From Arcobacter sp. LC1 (GTDB taxonomy: Bacteria > Campylobacterota > Campylobacteria > Campylobacterales > Arcobacteraceae), in the NCBI GenBank assembly GCA_021378565.1, contig JAACJU010000003.1, forward strand, positions 1-64,000: 64,000 nucleotides of DNA, given 5' to 3'. Shown here piece by piece: positions 2,123-18,147 of the stretch. Under the pieces are notes generated by a model. It saw nothing but the letters and a program-made list of their open reading frames with translations. It was not told the origin of the DNA and made no database searches. Both the position numbers and the translations under genes were made by a program. Every line of letters begins with the position of its first letter. Within the stretch, counting starts at the first letter, position 1.

Positions 2123-2183
2123 TCACTTCTCCAAAACATTTAATATAAACGCTTAAAGTATATCATAAAAGTATTTAAAAACA

Positions 2184-3554
2184 TTATTGCTTTGAAGTAG
2201 ATTGCGCAATCATCATTTGCAAACCGCCAAATGATGATTGCATTCTAGATATTATTGCCGTATAAGCTGCAAATTTTTGTGCCATTGCATTATATTTATC
2301 ATCTAAATGTTTTTGTGCTTTTGTTTTATCTGATTCTAAATCTGTTAACCTTTTGTGCATATTTTTATCATATTGTGTCAAAAGTCCATTTCCAAAACTT
2401 AAGCTATCAATATATGATTTTAGTTTAGTCCCGACACCTTCAGCTTCAGCGACACCAACAAAAAGACTTTTTACATCATCAGGATGCTTTGACAAAGCTT
2501 CTGAAAAAAGCTTTGAATCAAGCTTCATACTTCCATCTTTTTGTATAGAAAAACCATAATTGAATAAAGATAAAGGATTTTTTTTAGGATCTTTACCGTA
2601 AGCTCCAAAAAATATATTTTTAATAGAATCTGTCATTTGTTTAAAAGTATCATTATCACTTAATGGACTGTCTTTATCAAATCTTTCATCTGAAATGAAT
2701 TTTATCAAATCATTATATTGCTCTACTAATTTTTTAGCAGCTGGAACTATTTTATCTGTACTTTTTGAGATTGAAACTGATGATTTTCCAGTAGATACTA
2801 CATTTATTTTTAGTCCGTCAGCCATCTGCATTTGATTACTTGCTAAATCATAAGAAACTCCATTTAAAGTAGCTTTCATATTTTGAGCTGTTACGGTATG
2901 ATTGCCTTTTGTATTAAAACCTAAGCTTGAAGCAGCAGCACCTGAAATAACTAAGGCATTATCTTTGCCTGTTTTAGCACTTGAAATTATTAATTTAAAT
3001 TGCCCAGTTCCAACTTCTTCAACTGAAGCTGTGACATCTGGATCTTGACTAATCTTAGTTGCTAATTCATCATAAGTCAAACCTTTTGTTTTGAAAGTTT
3101 GAGACTTACCATTTACGCTTATAGTAAGTGTATCTGCACCTGGTATTTTAGCAGTTTTAGAAGAAATAATATTACCTTGATAGGCATCTCTAGTAGCAAT
3201 TTGTTTTACATCAATATTTTGAGTACCAGCTTTTAGCAAGGTGGTATCATCAACTGAAAATATTGCAGAGCTTCCTGTACTAGAAGCATTTAGTTGCTTA
3301 AATACATTTGTATTGTCGCCATTATAAAGGTCGAATAATTTTACAGTATCTTGAAAGTCAGATACCTTTTTTTGAATCTCAGTGAAAATATATTCTTCAC
3401 CCTCTTTACCTTTTTCAACAGAAGTGATTTTATCTATTTGCTTAGTTATAGGATCGATTCTTGCTTTTGATTCAGCCTTTTTCAATTTATCAAGTAATGC
3501 TTGACTTAATTCAACAGAGTTTCCTGAGCCTAATCCTAAGATTCCTTGTGCCAT
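2184..3554 (-). CDS. fliD: flagellar filament cap protein FliD (short form)
   Basis: FliD (hook-associated protein 2) forms the cap under which flagellin polymerises. The amino terminus GILGLGSGNSVELSQALLDKLKKAE followed by KARIDPITKQI matches Campylobacter FliD. The carboxyl part has the conserved coiled helix (YDKNMHKRLTDLESDK) that pairs with the amino-terminal helix in the leg domain. At 456 residues it is clearly shorter than the C. jejuni protein, which I recall as about 640, so part of the exposed domain region is absent. Start chosen at MAQGILG with AAAGGAT upstream. It follows flgK by 16 bases and precedes fliS. Confidence 0.92.
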   Translation of the reverse strand: MAQGILGLGSGNSVELSQALLDKLKKAESKARIDPITKQIDKITSVEKGKEGEEYIFTEIQKKVSDFQDTVKLFDLYNGDNTNVFKQLNASSTGSSAIFSVDDTTLLKAGTQNIDVKQIATRDAYQGNIISSKTAKIPGADTLTISVNGKSQTFKTKGLTYDELATKISQDPDVTASVEEVGTGQFKLIISSAKTGKDNALVISGAAASSLGFNTKGNHTVTAQNMKATLNGVSYDLASNQMQMADGLKINVVSTGKSSVSISKSTDKIVPAAKKLVEQYNDLIKFISDERFDKDSPLSDNDTFKQMTDSIKNIFFGAYGKDPKKNPLSLFNYGFSIQKDGSMKLDSKLFSEALSKHPDDVKSLFVGVAEAEGVGTKLKSYIDSLSFGNGLLTQYDKNMHKRLTDLESDKTKAQKHLDDKYNAMAQKFAAYTAIISRMQSSFGGLQMMIAQSTSKQ

Positions 3555-3570
3555 AATTTATCCTTTCTTT

Positions 3571-5412
3571 TTAGGTCATATTTAATAATGTTTTTATCAT
3601 CTGATCCATAGTCGTTATCGTTTTTGCACTCGCCGTGTATGCTGATTGAAATTTAATAAGATTAACCATCTCTTCATCTTTATCAACTTTAGTTAACTTA
3701 TTAAAAGCTAATTGAATAGCGTGAGTAACCTCATCTTGCGTTGTTTTTTGTGAATCATTTGATTCTTTATCAGCTGAAACTTTAACCAAAAGATTTCGGT
3801 AAAATACTGTAAAAGTTGTACCTTTGCTCGTGTTATCCTGAGGTGAGCCATCAAATTGAACATTTTCTTTAAATTGTATGCTAGATAAATAATCCACATC
3901 ATCTTGAGTTAATCCATTGACTGAGTTATTATTAAATTTCAAACTATCAACAGTTGAACCTGAAAAAAATTTTAATTTATGAATAACTCCTCCGCTTGTA
4001 TCTAAATCAGTAGCTTTTTGTCCAGAAATATAAGATCCATCAGGATTTTTTATATAAGTGCTTGTAATATCACTTAAAGCATCTGCTAAGTCATCAAGTT
4101 TGGCTCTATATCCTGATAATAGATTGTTAGGTGCGCTTGTATTTGATACTTCCAAATCAGCTCTAAGCGAACCTTTTATTGGATTGACTATATCATTTGC
4201 GATAGCAAGTTGTGAAATATCTTCAGCTTCTTTAGAAGTTTTTAGATTTCTATTAACTAAAGTTTTAGTCCCAGCCGTAGCATCTTTTACTATCACACTA
4301 ACTTTAAATCTATTAGCTTCTCCACCTTTTGTAGAACGAAGAACCAAGAAATGATCCACAGTATGATCAATATATCTACTTCCATCATGTGCTTTGTTAA
4401 AAGCTCCATTTGTAGCATAAATTCCAGCGCCTGAATTGTTCACTTTTGCCGCTAAAACTCTTATATAATTTTTAGCATCAACTGTACCGCTATCATAAAC
4501 CCCATCACCATCTACATCTATTTTATCAGCTTTGGTAAATTTTTCTCCAAAATTTATAGTGATTTTGGTTTTATCATTATTATTAACCATAATACTTATC
4601 TCATCACCTGTACCAAATCCTCCAGTACCTGTAGTAGTTAGATTATTTAATCCAGATCCGTTTGAATATTTGTAACTTTGAGCTTGTTTTAACTGAACAA
4701 TTCTCAAAGGATGAACGTTTCTGCCATACACAATAGCAGGAGTCCCCTCTATATCTAGGCTATAAGGTGGAGTTTTATGTACAACAATTCCTACAAATTT
4801 TGACAACTTAGCTTCTAGCAAATCTCTTCTATCTAATAAGTCTGTGCCACCTTTTGTCCTACTTTCGAGTTGTTTATTTATATCAGAAATAGAATTTAAA
4901 ATACCATTTATTGCTTCTACGTTATCTTCTACTTTGCCTTCCATTTGTTTTTGCTTAGTTTCTGTGCCACCATATAAATTTTTCAAATCATGTATAATAT
5001 CATTTGATCTATTTTTTAAATCTGTTTTATAAATCTCATTTGCTGGAGCCGCCCTTACATCTTCTAATGATTGAAAAAAATCATTTAAATCTTTAGTTAG
5101 CCCACTACTTTCGGTTTCTTTAAAAGTATTCTCAACATTTGCCATAATGTCTGAACGTTCATCTAAATATCCAGATTTCCCATTTGCTTGGACTAGAGTA
5201 TGATTTAGATACCTATTGGTTACTCTTCTTATACCATCTATGCTTACGCCTCTACCTATGTCATTATTTTTGACATGTTCAAGTTCGCTTAGCTCAACTA
5301 TCCTTCTTTTGTATCCAGGAGTATTCTCATTTGATATGTCATTCATGACATTCTCAACAGACTGTTTTGATGCATTTAATCCCGACAAGGGAATTTGCAA
5401 CGAACCTAACAT
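3571..5412 (-). CDS. flgK: flagellar hook-filament junction protein FlgK
   Basis: FlgK (hook-associated protein 1) joins hook and filament. The 613-residue product has the rod/hook-family amino terminus (LQIPLSGLNASKQSVENVMNDISNENTPGYKR, with the ANxxTPGY-type motif) and the matching carboxyl end (EEMVNLIKFQSAYTASAKTI). The FlgK-specific central block includes LNDFFQSLEDVRAAP. Around residue 300 it contains DKIDVDGDGVYDSG, an Asp-rich loop like a calcium-binding DxDxDG site. Length is normal for Campylobacter FlgK. AAAGGAG precedes the ATG. It lies between flgH and fliD with short gaps. Confidence 0.95.
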   Translation of the reverse strand: MLGSLQIPLSGLNASKQSVENVMNDISNENTPGYKRRIVELSELEHVKNNDIGRGVSIDGIRRVTNRYLNHTLVQANGKSGYLDERSDIMANVENTFKETESSGLTKDLNDFFQSLEDVRAAPANEIYKTDLKNRSNDIIHDLKNLYGGTETKQKQMEGKVEDNVEAINGILNSISDINKQLESRTKGGTDLLDRRDLLEAKLSKFVGIVVHKTPPYSLDIEGTPAIVYGRNVHPLRIVQLKQAQSYKYSNGSGLNNLTTTGTGGFGTGDEISIMVNNNDKTKITINFGEKFTKADKIDVDGDGVYDSGTVDAKNYIRVLAAKVNNSGAGIYATNGAFNKAHDGSRYIDHTVDHFLVLRSTKGGEANRFKVSVIVKDATAGTKTLVNRNLKTSKEAEDISQLAIANDIVNPIKGSLRADLEVSNTSAPNNLLSGYRAKLDDLADALSDITSTYIKNPDGSYISGQKATDLDTSGGVIHKLKFFSGSTVDSLKFNNNSVNGLTQDDVDYLSSIQFKENVQFDGSPQDNTSKGTTFTVFYRNLLVKVSADKESNDSQKTTQDEVTHAIQLAFNKLTKVDKDEEMVNLIKFQSAYTASAKTITTMDQMIKTLLNMT

Positions 5413-13167: not shown

Positions 13168-13506
<339 letters not shown>

Positions 13507-13565: not shown

Positions 13566-14741
13566 CTAAAATGCCCTTTTAAATTCAGGGTAAGCTTCAA
13601 GTCCACATTCTTCTATATCTAAGCCTTGCGCTTGTTCATAATCATCAGCTTTTAGTTTAAATAATTTATTTATTACAAATAATACTATATATGAACTTAC
13701 AAAAGAAAAAAGTCCAATCTCAAGCACTGCTTTTGCTTGAGCTAAAAAAGAGATTTTTGGTACAAGAAATGCTACAATTAAAGTTCCAAAAATACCATTT
13801 ACCAAATGCACGCTCAAAGCTCCCACAGGGTCATCAAAACTTAGATAATCAAAAAAATTAACAAAAAATACAACCAAAATCCCAGCTAAAGTACCTACAA
13901 GCAAAGGCTCATAAATATTATATAAATCAGCTCCTGCGCTAACTGCAACAAGTCCACCTAAAGCGCCATTTAAAATCATAGTAATATCAAATTTTTTGTA
14001 TCTCAAATATGATAAAAACCCAACACTGAGGGCGCCACTTAAGCCTGCTGTATTTGTATTTAATATACAAAGTGCAACTTCATTTGCGCTAAATTTGGAA
14101 GAAAATGCCCCTACACTTCCTCCGTTAAATCCAAACCACCCAAGCCATAATAAAAATGCACCAAGACATAAAAGTGGAATATTTGAAGCAGGAATTACTC
14201 TAATTTTACCTTTTATATATCTGCCTTTTCTAGGGCCGATGATTAACATTGCAGAAAGTAATGCCCAGCCACCCAAAGAGTGAATCACGCTTGAACCTGC
14301 TAAATCATGGAAATCTAAGCTTAAAAAAGTGTTCTGTAAAATATCTTTAGTCCAAGCTAATTTGATAACAAAAGGATAAATAAAAATAGACATAATAAGT
14401 GTAAAAATCCCAAGAGGCAAGATTTTAGCTCTTTCGCTTATGCCCCCACTAATAATATTTACTACCTTTCCTGCAAACGCCATTTCAAAAAACATAAAAG
14501 CATAATTACTTAGATTTTTTGGTGCAAAATCTCCAAAAGCGAAGTGATAACCTACAAACAAAAAACCTAAAGATGCCAAAACATAAATCATAGTATTTAT
14601 CATCAAAACACTAGAAACATTTTTAACTCTAACCAAACCAGCTTCAAGCATGGCAAAACCAGGAACCATGAACACAACTAAAACACTAGCAAAAAGCATA
14701 AAAAGTGTATTTATTATATAATCCAAAGATGGGTTTGCCAT
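13566..14741 (-). CDS. amtB: ammonium transporter AmtB
   Basis: AmtB forms trimeric inner-membrane channels for ammonium. The 391-residue protein has about eleven membrane helices. It holds the pore histidine pair: one in DLAGSSVIHSLGG and one in GALSVHLVNGIFGTL. It has the early motif VPGFAMLEAGLVRVKN and LLWLGWFGFNGGS. Length fits the family, with no signal-peptide extension visible. It is the first gene of amtB-glnK-pyrC, and is blocked by unmodified GlnK in other bacteria. The promoter lies in the 95-base gap shared with the divergent regulator gene. Confidence 0.97.
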   Translation of the reverse strand: MANPSLDYIINTLFMLFASVLVVFMVPGFAMLEAGLVRVKNVSSVLMINTMIYVLASLGFLFVGYHFAFGDFAPKNLSNYAFMFFEMAFAGKVVNIISGGISERAKILPLGIFTLIMSIFIYPFVIKLAWTKDILQNTFLSLDFHDLAGSSVIHSLGGWALLSAMLIIGPRKGRYIKGKIRVIPASNIPLLCLGAFLLWLGWFGFNGGSVGAFSSKFSANEVALCILNTNTAGLSGALSVGFLSYLRYKKFDITMILNGALGGLVAVSAGADLYNIYEPLLVGTLAGILVVFFVNFFDYLSFDDPVGALSVHLVNGIFGTLIVAFLVPKISFLAQAKAVLEIGLFSFVSSYIVLFVINKLFKLKADDYEQAQGLDIEECGLEAYPEFKRAF

Positions 14742-14773
14742 TTTTTGCCTTTTTATCTAAGATATTTATTTTA

Positions 14774-14779
14774 ATTATA
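14774..14779 (-). promoter_or_regulatory. -10 box for amtB-glnK-pyrC
   Basis: The minus strand reads GGTTATAATTAA, giving a perfect TATAAT 32 bases before the amtB ATG at 14741. The opposite regulator gene starts 58 bases away, so a protein bound between them could control both directions. Confidence 0.6.
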
Positions 14780-14808
14780 ACCCAAACTAAGTATTAATTT
14801 ATTTTTTT

Positions 14809-14818
14809 ATTGTACAAT
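14809..14818. promoter_or_regulatory. 10-bp palindrome in the amtB/regulator divergent gap
   Basis: ATTGTACAAT is a perfect palindrome 19 bases before the ATG of the Fis-type regulator and 68 bases before amtB. Its centre TGTACA resembles the core of NtrC/Fis-like sites. It could be an operator for the regulator encoded alongside, but ten bases in AT-rich DNA is limited evidence. Confidence 0.35.
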
Positions 14819-14836
14819 TTATATACAAGGAAAGAA

Positions 14837-15616
14837 ATGCCTAATACTTTTTTAAGCTCATCTTTTATCTCTAAAGAATTACTAAAATCAGCAAAAATTT
14901 TAAAAAATCTCAATATAAATGTACTTATTTCAGGAGCGAGTGGAACAGGCAAAAAAACCCTAGCAAGAAACATTGACAAAGAAGCTAAGATAATTTTAGC
15001 AAAAGATTTTCAAGAGTTACTAGAAAAGGGCTTTAAAAATTTTAAAGCAAAATGTATAATAATAGATAAATTTGAAGATTTTAATAACCTTGATTTACTA
15101 GAGCTTTGGTTAAAAAACTCAAAAACTAGAATAATAGCCTTAGCTAAAACAAATGCGTTAAATAAAAAAATTCTAGAGCATTTTTGCGTAAATCTAGAAA
15201 TTCCAGCACTTGAATCTAGGCTAGAAGATAAAAATATTTTAAGTAAAAAATTTGCCAAACAGGCAAAAGAACTTTTAGGCAAAGAGCTTTTTGATAAAAC
15301 AAAGCAGACAAACAAAGCAGAGGAAAATACTGATTTAGAGAATGCGCACCTTTTAAAACAAAAAATTTATTTAAATTATTTTTTTGAGCATATTAAAAAA
15401 GATGAATTACTTTTGCTTATGGAAAAATTTATTTTAAAAAACTTTTCTAAAGATTTTGAGGATTTTAAGTATAAGGATTTTCTTTATCTTTATGAAGCAC
15501 CGCTTTTAAAAATAGCAAAAGAAAAATACAAAAGCCAAGTAAAAATGTCAAAACACCTTGGACTAAATCGCACAACACTTAGAAAAAAGCTAGAAGCTAA
15601 CAAAGATTTTTTATAA
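14837..15616 (+). CDS. shrunken NtrC-type regulator: degenerate AAA+ plus Fis helix-turn-helix
   Basis: The 259-residue product has a Walker A loop (SGASGTGKKTLARN, about residues 31-44) and a carboxyl Fis-type helix-turn-helix (KSQVKMSKHLGLNRTTLRKKLEAN). This order is that of NtrC-family activators, but there is no receiver domain, only some 30 residues separate Walker A from the Walker-B-like CIIIDKFEDF, and the GAFTGA loop that contacts sigma-54 is missing. It may bind DNA as a repressor or nucleotide-sensing switch rather than activate sigma-54. Start: ATG at 14837 with AAGGAAAG before it; a TTG at 14810 lies upstream of that ribosome site. Its stop overlaps the glnD start (TAATG). No established name is known to me. 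Confidence 0.85.
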   Translation: MPNTFLSSSFISKELLKSAKILKNLNINVLISGASGTGKKTLARNIDKEAKIILAKDFQELLEKGFKNFKAKCIIIDKFEDFNNLDLLELWLKNSKTRIIALAKTNALNKKILEHFCVNLEIPALESRLEDKNILSKKFAKQAKELLGKELFDKTKQTNKAEENTDLENAHLLKQKIYLNYFFEHIKKDELLLLMEKFILKNFSKDFEDFKYKDFLYLYEAPLLKIAKEKYKSQVKMSKHLGLNRTTLRKKLEANKDFL

Positions 15617-18147
15617 TGGATGAATTAAGTCTAAAAATAGAAGAATTATTAGCAAAAAAAGAAGCTGATTTTGAGATTTCACAACTTTTTAAAGACTATT
15701 TTGATAAATATATAAATGCACAAAAACAAAACATAAATCAACTAAGTGGCAAAAAGTTTTTTATAAGCCACACAAAAGCTGTTGATAATTTTATTATTAT
15801 GCTTTATAAATACATACTTAGAAGAAATTTTGGCTCTTATAGACCTTCAAGTTTAGCTCTTCCAATAACTTTAGTAGCACTTGGAAGCTATGGAAGGGAA
15901 CAACTTTGTCTTTATAGCGATATTGATTTACTTTTGGTATATCAAGACATCAAGGGCTATAATACAAAAAATATTTTAGAAGAATTTTTAACCCTTGCTT
16001 GGGATTGTGGGCTAAAATTAGGGCATAAAGTGCATGAAATTTCACAACTTGAGGGGGATTTCAACAAAGATATTACATCTAAAACCTCAGCTTTAGAATC
16101 AAGACTAATTTATGGCTCAAAACTTTTATGGCATTCTTATGAAAATGTCATAAGCAGTCTAAGAAGAACTAAGCAAAAAGAATTTATTTTAGCCAAGATT
16201 GAAGAACAGCAAAAAAGATTAGAAAAGTATCCTTTAAACATGCAAACAAATATCAAAGATGGATATGGTGGAATAAGAGAATCTAACACCTTATTTTGGA
16301 TAGCAAATACGATACACAAAATACCATCTTTAAAAGAATTAGTGCCTTATTTATTTTCTCCAGAAGAGTATTTAAAATACAGAATAAGCTTAGAATTTAT
16401 TTTTCAAGTGAGAAATATTTTGCATAAAATATCTTCAAAAAAGCAAGACTTAGTTAACTTTGATATTTTGCCAAATTTAAGCCAAAAACTTGGATTTAAA
16501 GATTCAAAAAATACTACAAAAGAAAATCTTTGTTTTTCAAAATTATTTGAAGCTTTGCATGAAATTCATTTTTTTACACATATTATGACAAATAAACTAA
16601 CAAGAAGATATTTTTGCGCCTTAGAAAATATTACAAAATTAAAAAAACTTAGATATAAAAAAAATCTATTTATAAAAGAAAACAAGCTTTATTCGGGCTT
16701 TAATGCTAGGGGTAAAAATATTACAAAAATACTAAAAGAAATGCTTGTGCTTCCTAAAGAAGTGAAAAGCTTTGATAATTCATTTATTTATTTAGTATCA
16801 AAGTCAAAAACAAGCCAAAGTAAAGAGCTAAAAACTATGATTTTAAAATTGCTTTTTTCGCAAAGAGATATTTATTTAATTTTAAAATGCCTGTATGAAG
16901 CCAAACTTTTTACTAAGCTTTTTCCACTAAGTAAAAAAATAATAAATCAAGCACAATTTGATGGGTATCATAGTTTTCCTGTGGATATTCATTGTATAAA
17001 AACTATTTATTATCTTGAAAATATTGATGATGATTTTATTTTAGATATTTATCAGAGCCTAAGTTTTTATGAAAAAAGTCTAGTAAAAATCTCTGCTTTA
17101 TTTCACGATATGGGCAAAGGAAGAAAACTAGAGCATCATTTAGCGGGTGAGATTTTATTTAAAAAATATGCAAAAAGTATAGGTATGGATGAAAAAAGTC
17201 TAGTCATTTGTGCGAAGCTTATAAAAAATCACAACCTTTTAAGCAAAACAGCGACAAGAGAAGATATTTATTCGCAAAAAACTATTTTAAATTTTTTAGC
17301 ACTTGTAAAAAACGAATTAAATATAAAACTTTTGCTTTTACTTAGCTTTGCAGACATCAAAGCTCTTGGCTCGGCGTCTTACACTAACTCAACTTTGACG
17401 CTTATAAAAGAGCTTTTCATTCAAGCTATGCAAGGATTTAAAAATACAGAATTAATAGAGCAAAGTTCAAGAAAACTAGCAAAATTAAAAGCCATACAAA
17501 GACTAAAAATATACAAAGACTTAGATATAAAAATGCAAAATAAAATAAAAACTATATCTTCAACTCAAATATTTTTACAAGAAAAAGCTGAGAATATTTT
17601 ACAGCTTTCACTAAAAGCTAGAAATTTTGATGATTTTGTTTTTGATATTTTTAATAACCAAGATAAACACTTACAAATTGAAGTTATCAGAAGTAAGGAT
17701 CTTAATCTTGGTTTTTTACTAGCAAATTTTCAATCTTTAAATATTATTTCTTTAAATATTTTCAAACTTTATGATAATAAGAAATTCTTTAAAATTATTT
17801 ATTCCGAGAGCTTAGAAAAAGAAAACCTTAGTTTTTTTACACAAATTATAAAGTCTTCTTTTGATATGGGCAAAAAGGCTTTTATAAAAAAACCTAAAAT
17901 TCTTAGAAATGAAATCGAAATAAATCTAGAACACAGTGAAACTTTAGTGCAAATGAAAATAAATACACAAGACCAAAAAGGGCTTTTTTCTTATATTGCT
18001 AAAGTTTTTGATGATTTTGGTATAGATATTGAAAGTGCAAAAATTCATACTACAAAAAACAAAACAAGAGATATGTTACTTATTGAAAAAAATGGTAATT
18101 TTTGCTCAAAACAAGATGAAATTTTAAAAAAACTTTGTTCTGATTAA
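15616..18147 (+). CDS. glnD: [protein-PII] uridylyltransferase / uridylyl-removing enzyme
   Basis: GlnD adds UMP to PII when glutamine is low and removes it when glutamine is high. The 843-residue protein shows the nucleotidyltransferase motif GSYGREQLCLYSDIDL (Gly90-Ser91, Asp102, Asp104), an HD hydrolase domain with LFHDMGKGRK (His497-Asp498), and a carboxyl ACT domain (MKINTQDQKGLFSYIAKVF). A first ACT domain around 690-740 is diverged. Length is close to E. coli GlnD (890). Its target Tyr51 is present in the nearby GlnK. It overlaps the regulator gene by one base and ends 205 bases before nrdD. Confidence 0.95.
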   Translation: MDELSLKIEELLAKKEADFEISQLFKDYFDKYINAQKQNINQLSGKKFFISHTKAVDNFIIMLYKYILRRNFGSYRPSSLALPITLVALGSYGREQLCLYSDIDLLLVYQDIKGYNTKNILEEFLTLAWDCGLKLGHKVHEISQLEGDFNKDITSKTSALESRLIYGSKLLWHSYENVISSLRRTKQKEFILAKIEEQQKRLEKYPLNMQTNIKDGYGGIRESNTLFWIANTIHKIPSLKELVPYLFSPEEYLKYRISLEFIFQVRNILHKISSKKQDLVNFDILPNLSQKLGFKDSKNTTKENLCFSKLFEALHEIHFFTHIMTNKLTRRYFCALENITKLKKLRYKKNLFIKENKLYSGFNARGKNITKILKEMLVLPKEVKSFDNSFIYLVSKSKTSQSKELKTMILKLLFSQRDIYLILKCLYEAKLFTKLFPLSKKIINQAQFDGYHSFPVDIHCIKTIYYLENIDDDFILDIYQSLSFYEKSLVKISALFHDMGKGRKLEHHLAGEILFKKYAKSIGMDEKSLVICAKLIKNHNLLSKTATREDIYSQKTILNFLALVKNELNIKLLLLLSFADIKALGSASYTNSTLTLIKELFIQAMQGFKNTELIEQSSRKLAKLKAIQRLKIYKDLDIKMQNKIKTISSTQIFLQEKAENILQLSLKARNFDDFVFDIFNNQDKHLQIEVIRSKDLNLGFLLANFQSLNIISLNIFKLYDNKKFFKIIYSESLEKENLSFFTQIIKSSFDMGKKAFIKKPKILRNEIEINLEHSETLVQMKINTQDQKGLFSYIAKVFDDFGIDIESAKIHTTKNKTRDMLLIEKNGNFCSKQDEILKKLCSD

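Follow-up and report, generated by a model that had tools for sequence, protein, structure and literature searches.

A receiver-less NtrC-type protein encoded with GlnD in Arcobacter sp. LC1 as a probable sigma-70-dependent regulator of amtB-glnK and glnA

The window considered here, the first 64,000 nucleotides of contig JAACJU010000003.1 of Arcobacter sp. LC1 (assembly GCA_021378565.1; genome of 1.86 Mb in 26 contigs, 99.8% complete), contains a short NtrC-type regulatory gene, referred to below as REG, which directly precedes glnD. As the initial annotation had described, REG-glnD is divergent from the ammonium transporter and PII genes (amtB-glnK-pyrC), with 95 bp (14742-14836) between the two units, and REG overlaps glnD by one base: its codons run from 14837 to 15613 and its stop codon occupies 15614-15616, with the ATG of glnD starting at 15616 in the sequence TAATG. 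This arrangement, which points to co-translation, recurs in relatives. Among 40 same-strand junctions examined, 37 have stop and start offset by -1, -4, -8 or -14; the remaining three comprise one junction of +10 and two with a broken glnD frame. At loci L059 and L031 the glnD frame is interrupted and the coupled start is nevertheless retained. The window glnD product contains all expected domains by Pfam and NCBIfam (nucleotidyltransferase, GlnD_UR_UTase, HD and ACT) and carries the motifs GSYGREQLCLYSDID and HDMGKG, but is a divergent member of its family because its TIGR01693 score (338 bits) falls under the 519-bit cut-off.

The Pfam Sigma54_activat match on REG is limited to residues 12-50, the C terminus is an NtrC/Fis-type helix-turn-helix (HTH), and no receiver domain was found by reading the open reading frame (ORF) or with Pfam and NCBIfam. 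The AlphaFold2 (AF2) model, with a predicted local distance difference test score (pLDDT) of 85, shows a P-loop AAA+ fold with five main strands, a lid and an HTH at residues 216-254, and the best Foldseek matches are NtrX, NtrC1, NtrC4, PspF and VpsR. Domain searches, alignment and fold therefore bear out the earlier description of a protein with Walker A and a Fis HTH but no receiver. In a profile alignment (hhalign) of 81 REG sequences spanning the order, on which the residue counts given here are based, REG 2-258 aligns to residues 137-469 of NtrC with E=2e-15 (Escherichia coli NtrC and PspF as the second profile). The GAFTGA (L1) loop falls in a 20-residue gap of this alignment and is absent from all aligned members; a second gap takes out the segment preceding the arginine fingers. 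Lys39 of Walker A and Asp77 of Walker B are 38 residues apart, close to the earlier estimate of about 30, compared with 65 in E. coli NtrC (K174-D239).

The two ends of the protein have fared differently. Eight HTH residues (S233, Q234, N244, R245, T247, R249, K250, K251) are identical in 81/81 sequences. In the AAA+ part, Gly33 and Gly38 of Walker A are invariant and Lys39 is present in 78/81 (Arg in three), but position 78, the catalytic Glu of Walker B, is K, N, H, R or C across all 45 sequences of the glnD-linked type (type C, see below) and never E, the Walker B Asp is variable outside this type, and the sensor II Arg is not conserved. An invariant HTH next to degraded AAA+ motifs implies that the DNA-binding end is strongly constrained while the motor is probably dead or nearly so. 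Owing to the loss of the Walker B Glu, the arginine-finger segment and the sensor II Arg, ATP hydrolysis by REG is improbable, and without a receiver the protein cannot undergo the usual phosphorylation. The proposal of a nucleotide-responsive switch thus finds no support beyond the retained Walker A. That the shortened form is not a chance product follows from 23 invariant columns among 59 family sequences and from the recurring glnD overlap.

REG is not a peculiarity of the window. Whereas a single REG sequence gave no match against genome contigs, an alignment-based search recovered named relatives, almost all from Arcobacter, Halarcobacter, Malaciobacter, Poseidonibacter, Aliarcobacter and other Campylobacterales. 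Orthologues were found in 81 of 104 same-family (Arcobacteraceae-type) genomes, covering 19 of 20 genera. A profile search, as the initial annotation had proposed, was made with 59 sequences and detected proteins of comparably small size, matched over their full length, in about 20 further families of the order. The gene is lost in a lineage resembling Aliarcobacter butzleri and also in families f10 and f13, which are probably Campylobacteraceae and Helicobacteraceae; in these two families matches occur only around Walker A, in longer proteins. Three gene contexts were seen, with gene names assigned by inspection except for those searched by profile: tol-pal-cpoB-slyD-REG-fabD-pfs-ttcA in outgroups (type A), REG adjoining a 230-aa protein, c4, and often then amtB-glnK (type B), and REG-glnD as in the window (type C). 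Type C proteins form a single clade in the tree (98/99) and are nested with type A. A family specific to glnD was rejected, as most relatives outside Arcobacteraceae are located between slyD and fabD; this setting, seen at loci L107, L109-L114, L117, L118, L120, L123, L138 and L139, has no evident tie to nitrogen.

A search with PF04552 found no sigma-54 in the window genome and detected it in 33 of the 104 family genomes; 49 of the 81 REG-containing genomes, the window's included, are without detectable sigma-54, although some of these are incomplete. Together with the missing GAFTGA loop, this agrees with the earlier statement that REG is no sigma-54 activator, and a normal activator of that kind was rejected. 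No second HTH_8 protein was found in the window genome, and its remaining PF00158 matches begin part-way into the profile, lie in long ORFs and look by inspection like Clp/Lon-type AAA+ proteins.

An inverted repeat first spotted by reading intergenic regions was then counted de novo. Among all 6+6 dyads in 61 such regions, TGTATA-N5-TATACA ranks first, being exact in 18 regions (shuffle maximum for any dyad 5) and present with at most two mismatches in 44 (shuffled mean 4.5), with a peak at spacer 5. The 6-5-6 geometry is that of NtrC sites, and the motif is found upstream of amtB, glnA and REG. In REG-containing genomes the glnA copy precedes the start codon by about 84 bp and is exact in 16/23 (shuffle maximum 3). 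The assignment of REG to nitrogen regulation, made earlier from gene position, is supported by these predicted operators at amtB and glnA. The motif also follows the gene: within one mismatch it precedes amtB in 16/18 REG-containing and 0/8 REG-minus genomes (p=3e-5) and glnA in 20/23 and 0/4, respectively (p=0.002), p-values that are indicative only. The window operator is one of two perfect matches genome-wide, the other being located within a glycosyltransferase-like coding sequence, and weaker matches are near background (122 vs 93 control matches in a pattern scan); a wide REG regulon is therefore not claimed.

The operator stands at a fixed distance from sigma-70-type -10 boxes. Of 26 operator-bearing amtB promoters, 12 show a perfect TATAAT at a distance of 30/31 bp (shuffled mean 0.17, maximum 2), and 20 show a box there that differs from TATAAT by no more than one mismatch (shuffled mean 2.0, maximum 7); a TATAAT-like box is present at 29-32 bp in 19/22 glnA and 14/21 outgroup amtB promoters. 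Judged from sequence, the operator would thus occupy about -61 to -42 relative to the amtB and glnA promoters. On the REG side its end is 8 bp from the ATG and it spans a putative -10 box, TACAAT, which fits autorepression of REG.

In the outgroups the half-site is altered while the geometry is kept. Type A amtB regions carry TGATTA-N5-TAATCA, exact in 18/29 (shuffle maximum 2). Among B2-clade loci, L050 and L124 have this form perfectly and L121 with one mismatch. A single position in the recognition helix tracks this change: all 18 proteins of types A and B2 have N at residue 246, and 62 of the 63 of types C and B1 have I, V, M or T. The window protein has T, and its operator a TGTACA half. 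The constant geometry, the altered half-site and the one tracking residue connect REG with the motif, also where the genes lie apart. That residue 246 largely sets operator specificity, as part of a wider reading of REG and c4 as remnants of an NtrBC pair, is put forward tentatively, that reading as a whole having slightly less than an even chance.

The second component of such a pair is c4, present in 26/26 REG-containing genomes tested, the window genome included, and in 0/2 REG-minus genomes. Its N terminus gives weak PAS matches, and Foldseek places its AF2 model (pLDDT 85) with histidine kinases, among them the catalytic domain of NtrB (1r62; template modelling score 0.66 by target). No HisKA or HATPase match was obtained with Pfam for 22 members and the window genome copy, and no dimerization and histidine phosphotransfer (DHp) domain was found, the likeness to NtrB being one of fold only. 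Going by this model, c4 looks like a degenerate NtrB, with PAS and kinase-like domains but no phosphoacceptor domain. The gene adjoins REG in some genomes; where it does not, it follows a few bases behind an rpoD-like ORF in 10/10 loci inspected, the RpoD identity being confirmed by Pfam in three. This gene order (L283, L284-L292) was seen in Arcobacteraceae as well as in outgroup families. In E. coli, PII acts on NtrB via the kinase domain, and the retention of this domain in c4 would therefore fit a route by PII contact.

Table 1. Positions of the genes and sequence features discussed, in window coordinates except for c4
Feature	Position	Strand	Basis or remark
REG, degenerate NtrC-type regulator, 259 aa, AAA+ remnant and Fis/NtrC-type HTH	14837..15616	+	ORF, Pfam/NCBIfam, AF2, Foldseek, hhalign
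Walker A, residues 33-40 (GASGTGKK)	14933..14956	+	G33 and G38 invariant; K39 in 78/81
Walker B remnant, residues 74-78 (IIIDK), catalytic Glu replaced by Lys	15056..15070	+	alignment of family
NtrC-type HTH core, residues 233-251 (SQVKMSKHLGLNRTTLRKK)	15533..15589	+	residue 246 covaries with operator sequence
glnD, PII uridylyltransferase/uridylyl-removing enzyme, coupled to REG in translation	15616..18147	+	Pfam GlnD_UR_UTase 6e-25, HD, ACT; TIGR01693 9e-101
Operator TTGTACAATTTATATACAA (TGTAYA-N5-TRTACA), common to amtB-glnK and REG-glnD	14810..14828	.	0 mismatches to family motif
-10 box TATAAT of amtB, perfect, 30 bp from operator	14774..14779	-	sequence; equal spacing seen in further genomes
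Candidate -10 box TACAAT of REG-glnD, within operator	14813..14818	+	sequence scan, inferred
amtB, ammonium transporter, predicted REG target	13566..14741	-	PF00909 3.9e-78
glnK (PII), predicted REG target together with amtB	13168..13506	-	PF00543 2.3e-32
c4 of the window genome	C26:50002-50682		outside the window; in L283 (G000:C26:46000-55000), rpoD 2149-3996 and c4 4000-4692

The computed protein anatomy, family breadth, motif, spacing, co-occurrence and residue/operator covariation lead to the view that REG is, with fairly good probability, a phosphorylation-free, sigma-70-dependent descendant of NtrC which activates amtB-glnK and glnA. A REG dimer would bind the 17-bp palindrome TGTATA-N5-TATACA via its NtrC-type HTH and, with this site 30-31 bp ahead of the -10 box, recruit sigma-70 RNA polymerase or fix its position, thereby switching on ammonium uptake and glutamine synthetase. 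Bound at its own promoter, it would limit the synthesis of both REG and GlnD. The nitrogen signal would most likely arrive by protein contacts with GlnK (PII), whose modifying enzyme is co-translated with REG, and with the conserved degenerate NtrB partner; the direct coupling of REG to PII modification that the initial annotation had suggested is an inference from gene order. Extended to most of the order, this would amount to a contact-only switch from PII to sigma-70, composed of a receiver-less NtrC activator and a kinase-dead NtrB remnant usually encoded behind rpoD, a proposal that we hold a little more doubtful than not.

Several points weigh against this reading. Activation rather than repression is deduced from operator position alone, and the PII link is based on gene order and partner conservation only. 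The absence of a -35 box at these promoters says little, as many promoters of Campylobacterota lack one. The genomes compared are related, so their counts are not independent, and the REG-minus genomes represent one Aliarcobacter-type lineage, which means that the Fisher p-values overstate the association; phylogeny likewise confounds the residue/operator count, with few independent changes. Despite the presence of REG, good sites are missing at two type C amtB promoters, that of L061 and one of the pair in L065, and at the glnA promoter of G102; in genus g8, the gap immediately preceding amtB does not contain the site. The window genome itself shows one strong regulated region and, in addition, only glnA, whose site TTGTACAAAAAATAAACAG has two mismatches.

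The same operators could be read as sites of repression, with bound REG blocking polymerase at amtB-glnK, glnA and its own gene when nitrogen is plentiful. The operator does cover the putative REG promoter, and GAFTGA-less relatives of NtrC can repress too, as does Caulobacter NtrC (PMC10274813), but the amtB and glnA sites precede the -35 region and keep a constant helical distance to the -10 box, the usual place of an activator, and general repression is therefore considered unlikely. A slightly lower probability is given to REG being a AAA+ ring that still uses ATP to remodel sigma-70 promoters, or a sensor of ATP/ADP as in the nucleotide switch of the initial annotation, either of which would be compatible with the operator model. 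Walker A is kept in most members, and Rhodobacter capsulatus NtrC was reported to be ATP-dependent with the housekeeping polymerase (Bowman and Kranz 1998, as cited in PMC10274813); the losses in Walker B, the arginine-finger segment and sensor II described above speak against both variants.

Less probable still is that the operator belongs to another regulator, with REG a mere neighbour. TGTATA-like palindromes could serve further factors, but the motif has the NtrC geometry, is lost with REG and gives way to TGATTA in step with residue 246, also in clades in which REG is far from amtB; this explanation was rejected on the loss and covariation. A decaying, functionless relic was rejected as well and is given next to no weight: the AAA+ motifs are divergent and the gene has been lost in the A. 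butzleri-like lineage, f10 and f13, whereas the HTH residues are invariant across the order, the operator is conserved, and the ORFs are intact and coupled to glnD.

The amtB region shows further variation among relatives. The amtB-glnK pair occurs twice in tandem in many of them (L055, L056, L062-L066), usually with an operator at both copies. Between amtB and REG, many relatives (L052-L076, e.g. L075:4000-4860), but not the window, have a gene, c5, for a predicted membrane protein of about 287 aa and of no recognised family, often with an operator of its own. In the REG-minus Aliarcobacter-type loci L126-L133, the last 55 or so bases before amtB hold a near-invariant element, GTCCAGCGCTGG...AAAAGGAC, which can fold as two stems. 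An Rfam search of these loci gave no match, and the stems show no covariation; the element is possibly a replacement RNA control.

The genome of Arcobacter butzleri was reported to be missing RpoN as well as NtrB/NtrC homologues (PMC2147049), and FlgR has been called the sole sigma-54 activator of Campylobacter and other Epsilonproteobacteria (PMC3162934). To the question of how ammonium assimilation is regulated in these bacteria, the REG family suggests an answer that can be tested and that would apply to most of the order. If true, the model would explain how nitrogen uptake is controlled in bacteria without sigma-54 and without the standard NtrB/NtrC pair, and REG would be a model of conversion from sigma-54 to sigma-70; in the wider, more doubtful reading, a two-component system would have turned into a contact-only PII-to-sigma-70 switch. 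What is new is the operator motif, the fixed -10 spacing, the covariation of residue 246 and the NtrB relic; residue 246 against TGTATA or TGATTA constitutes a clean natural experiment in protein-DNA specificity.

The earlier statement that no regulator of this design had been described was too strong, as GAFTGA-less, sigma-70-dependent relatives of NtrC are known (PMC10274813, PMC3162934). For a receiver-less, strongly reduced, order-wide family with its operator, a literature search found no published description, though this is weak evidence as it covered open-licence papers only. The NtrC proteins of R. capsulatus and Caulobacter lack GAFTGA and depend on sigma-70 (PMC10274813); by sequence REG falls into this group, having lost the L1 loop, with sites near TATAAT-like -10 boxes of nitrogen genes. 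In them the receiver is present and phosphorylated, NtrB works and the AAA+ domain is almost complete, none of which applies to REG with its roughly 250 aa. TyrR, DhaR, HupR and VpsR are former enhancer-binding proteins that have lost the sigma-54 interaction (PMC3162934), but they have other sensor domains and other targets and are not receiver-less, reduced forms within a nitrogen circuit.

Enterobacterial NtrC (NRI) resembles REG over the AAA+ and HTH regions, in a 6-5-6 operator with TG...CA ends and in its targets, glnA and amtB-glnK, which are those predicted for REG. The differences are the receiver, GAFTGA loop, Walker B Glu and arginine-finger segment missing from REG, a genome in which sigma-54 was not found, and an operator which adjoins a -10 box and has TGTATA as its half, that of E. 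coli NtrC sites being TGCACC. The best Foldseek match, NtrX of Brucella abortus (5m7n), shares the NtrC kind of AAA+ domain at only 15% identity and, unlike REG, has a receiver. Although c4 is without the DHp domain and the Pfam kinase match of NtrB (NRII), it resembles this kinase in its PAS-like N terminus and in the fold of the catalytic domain.

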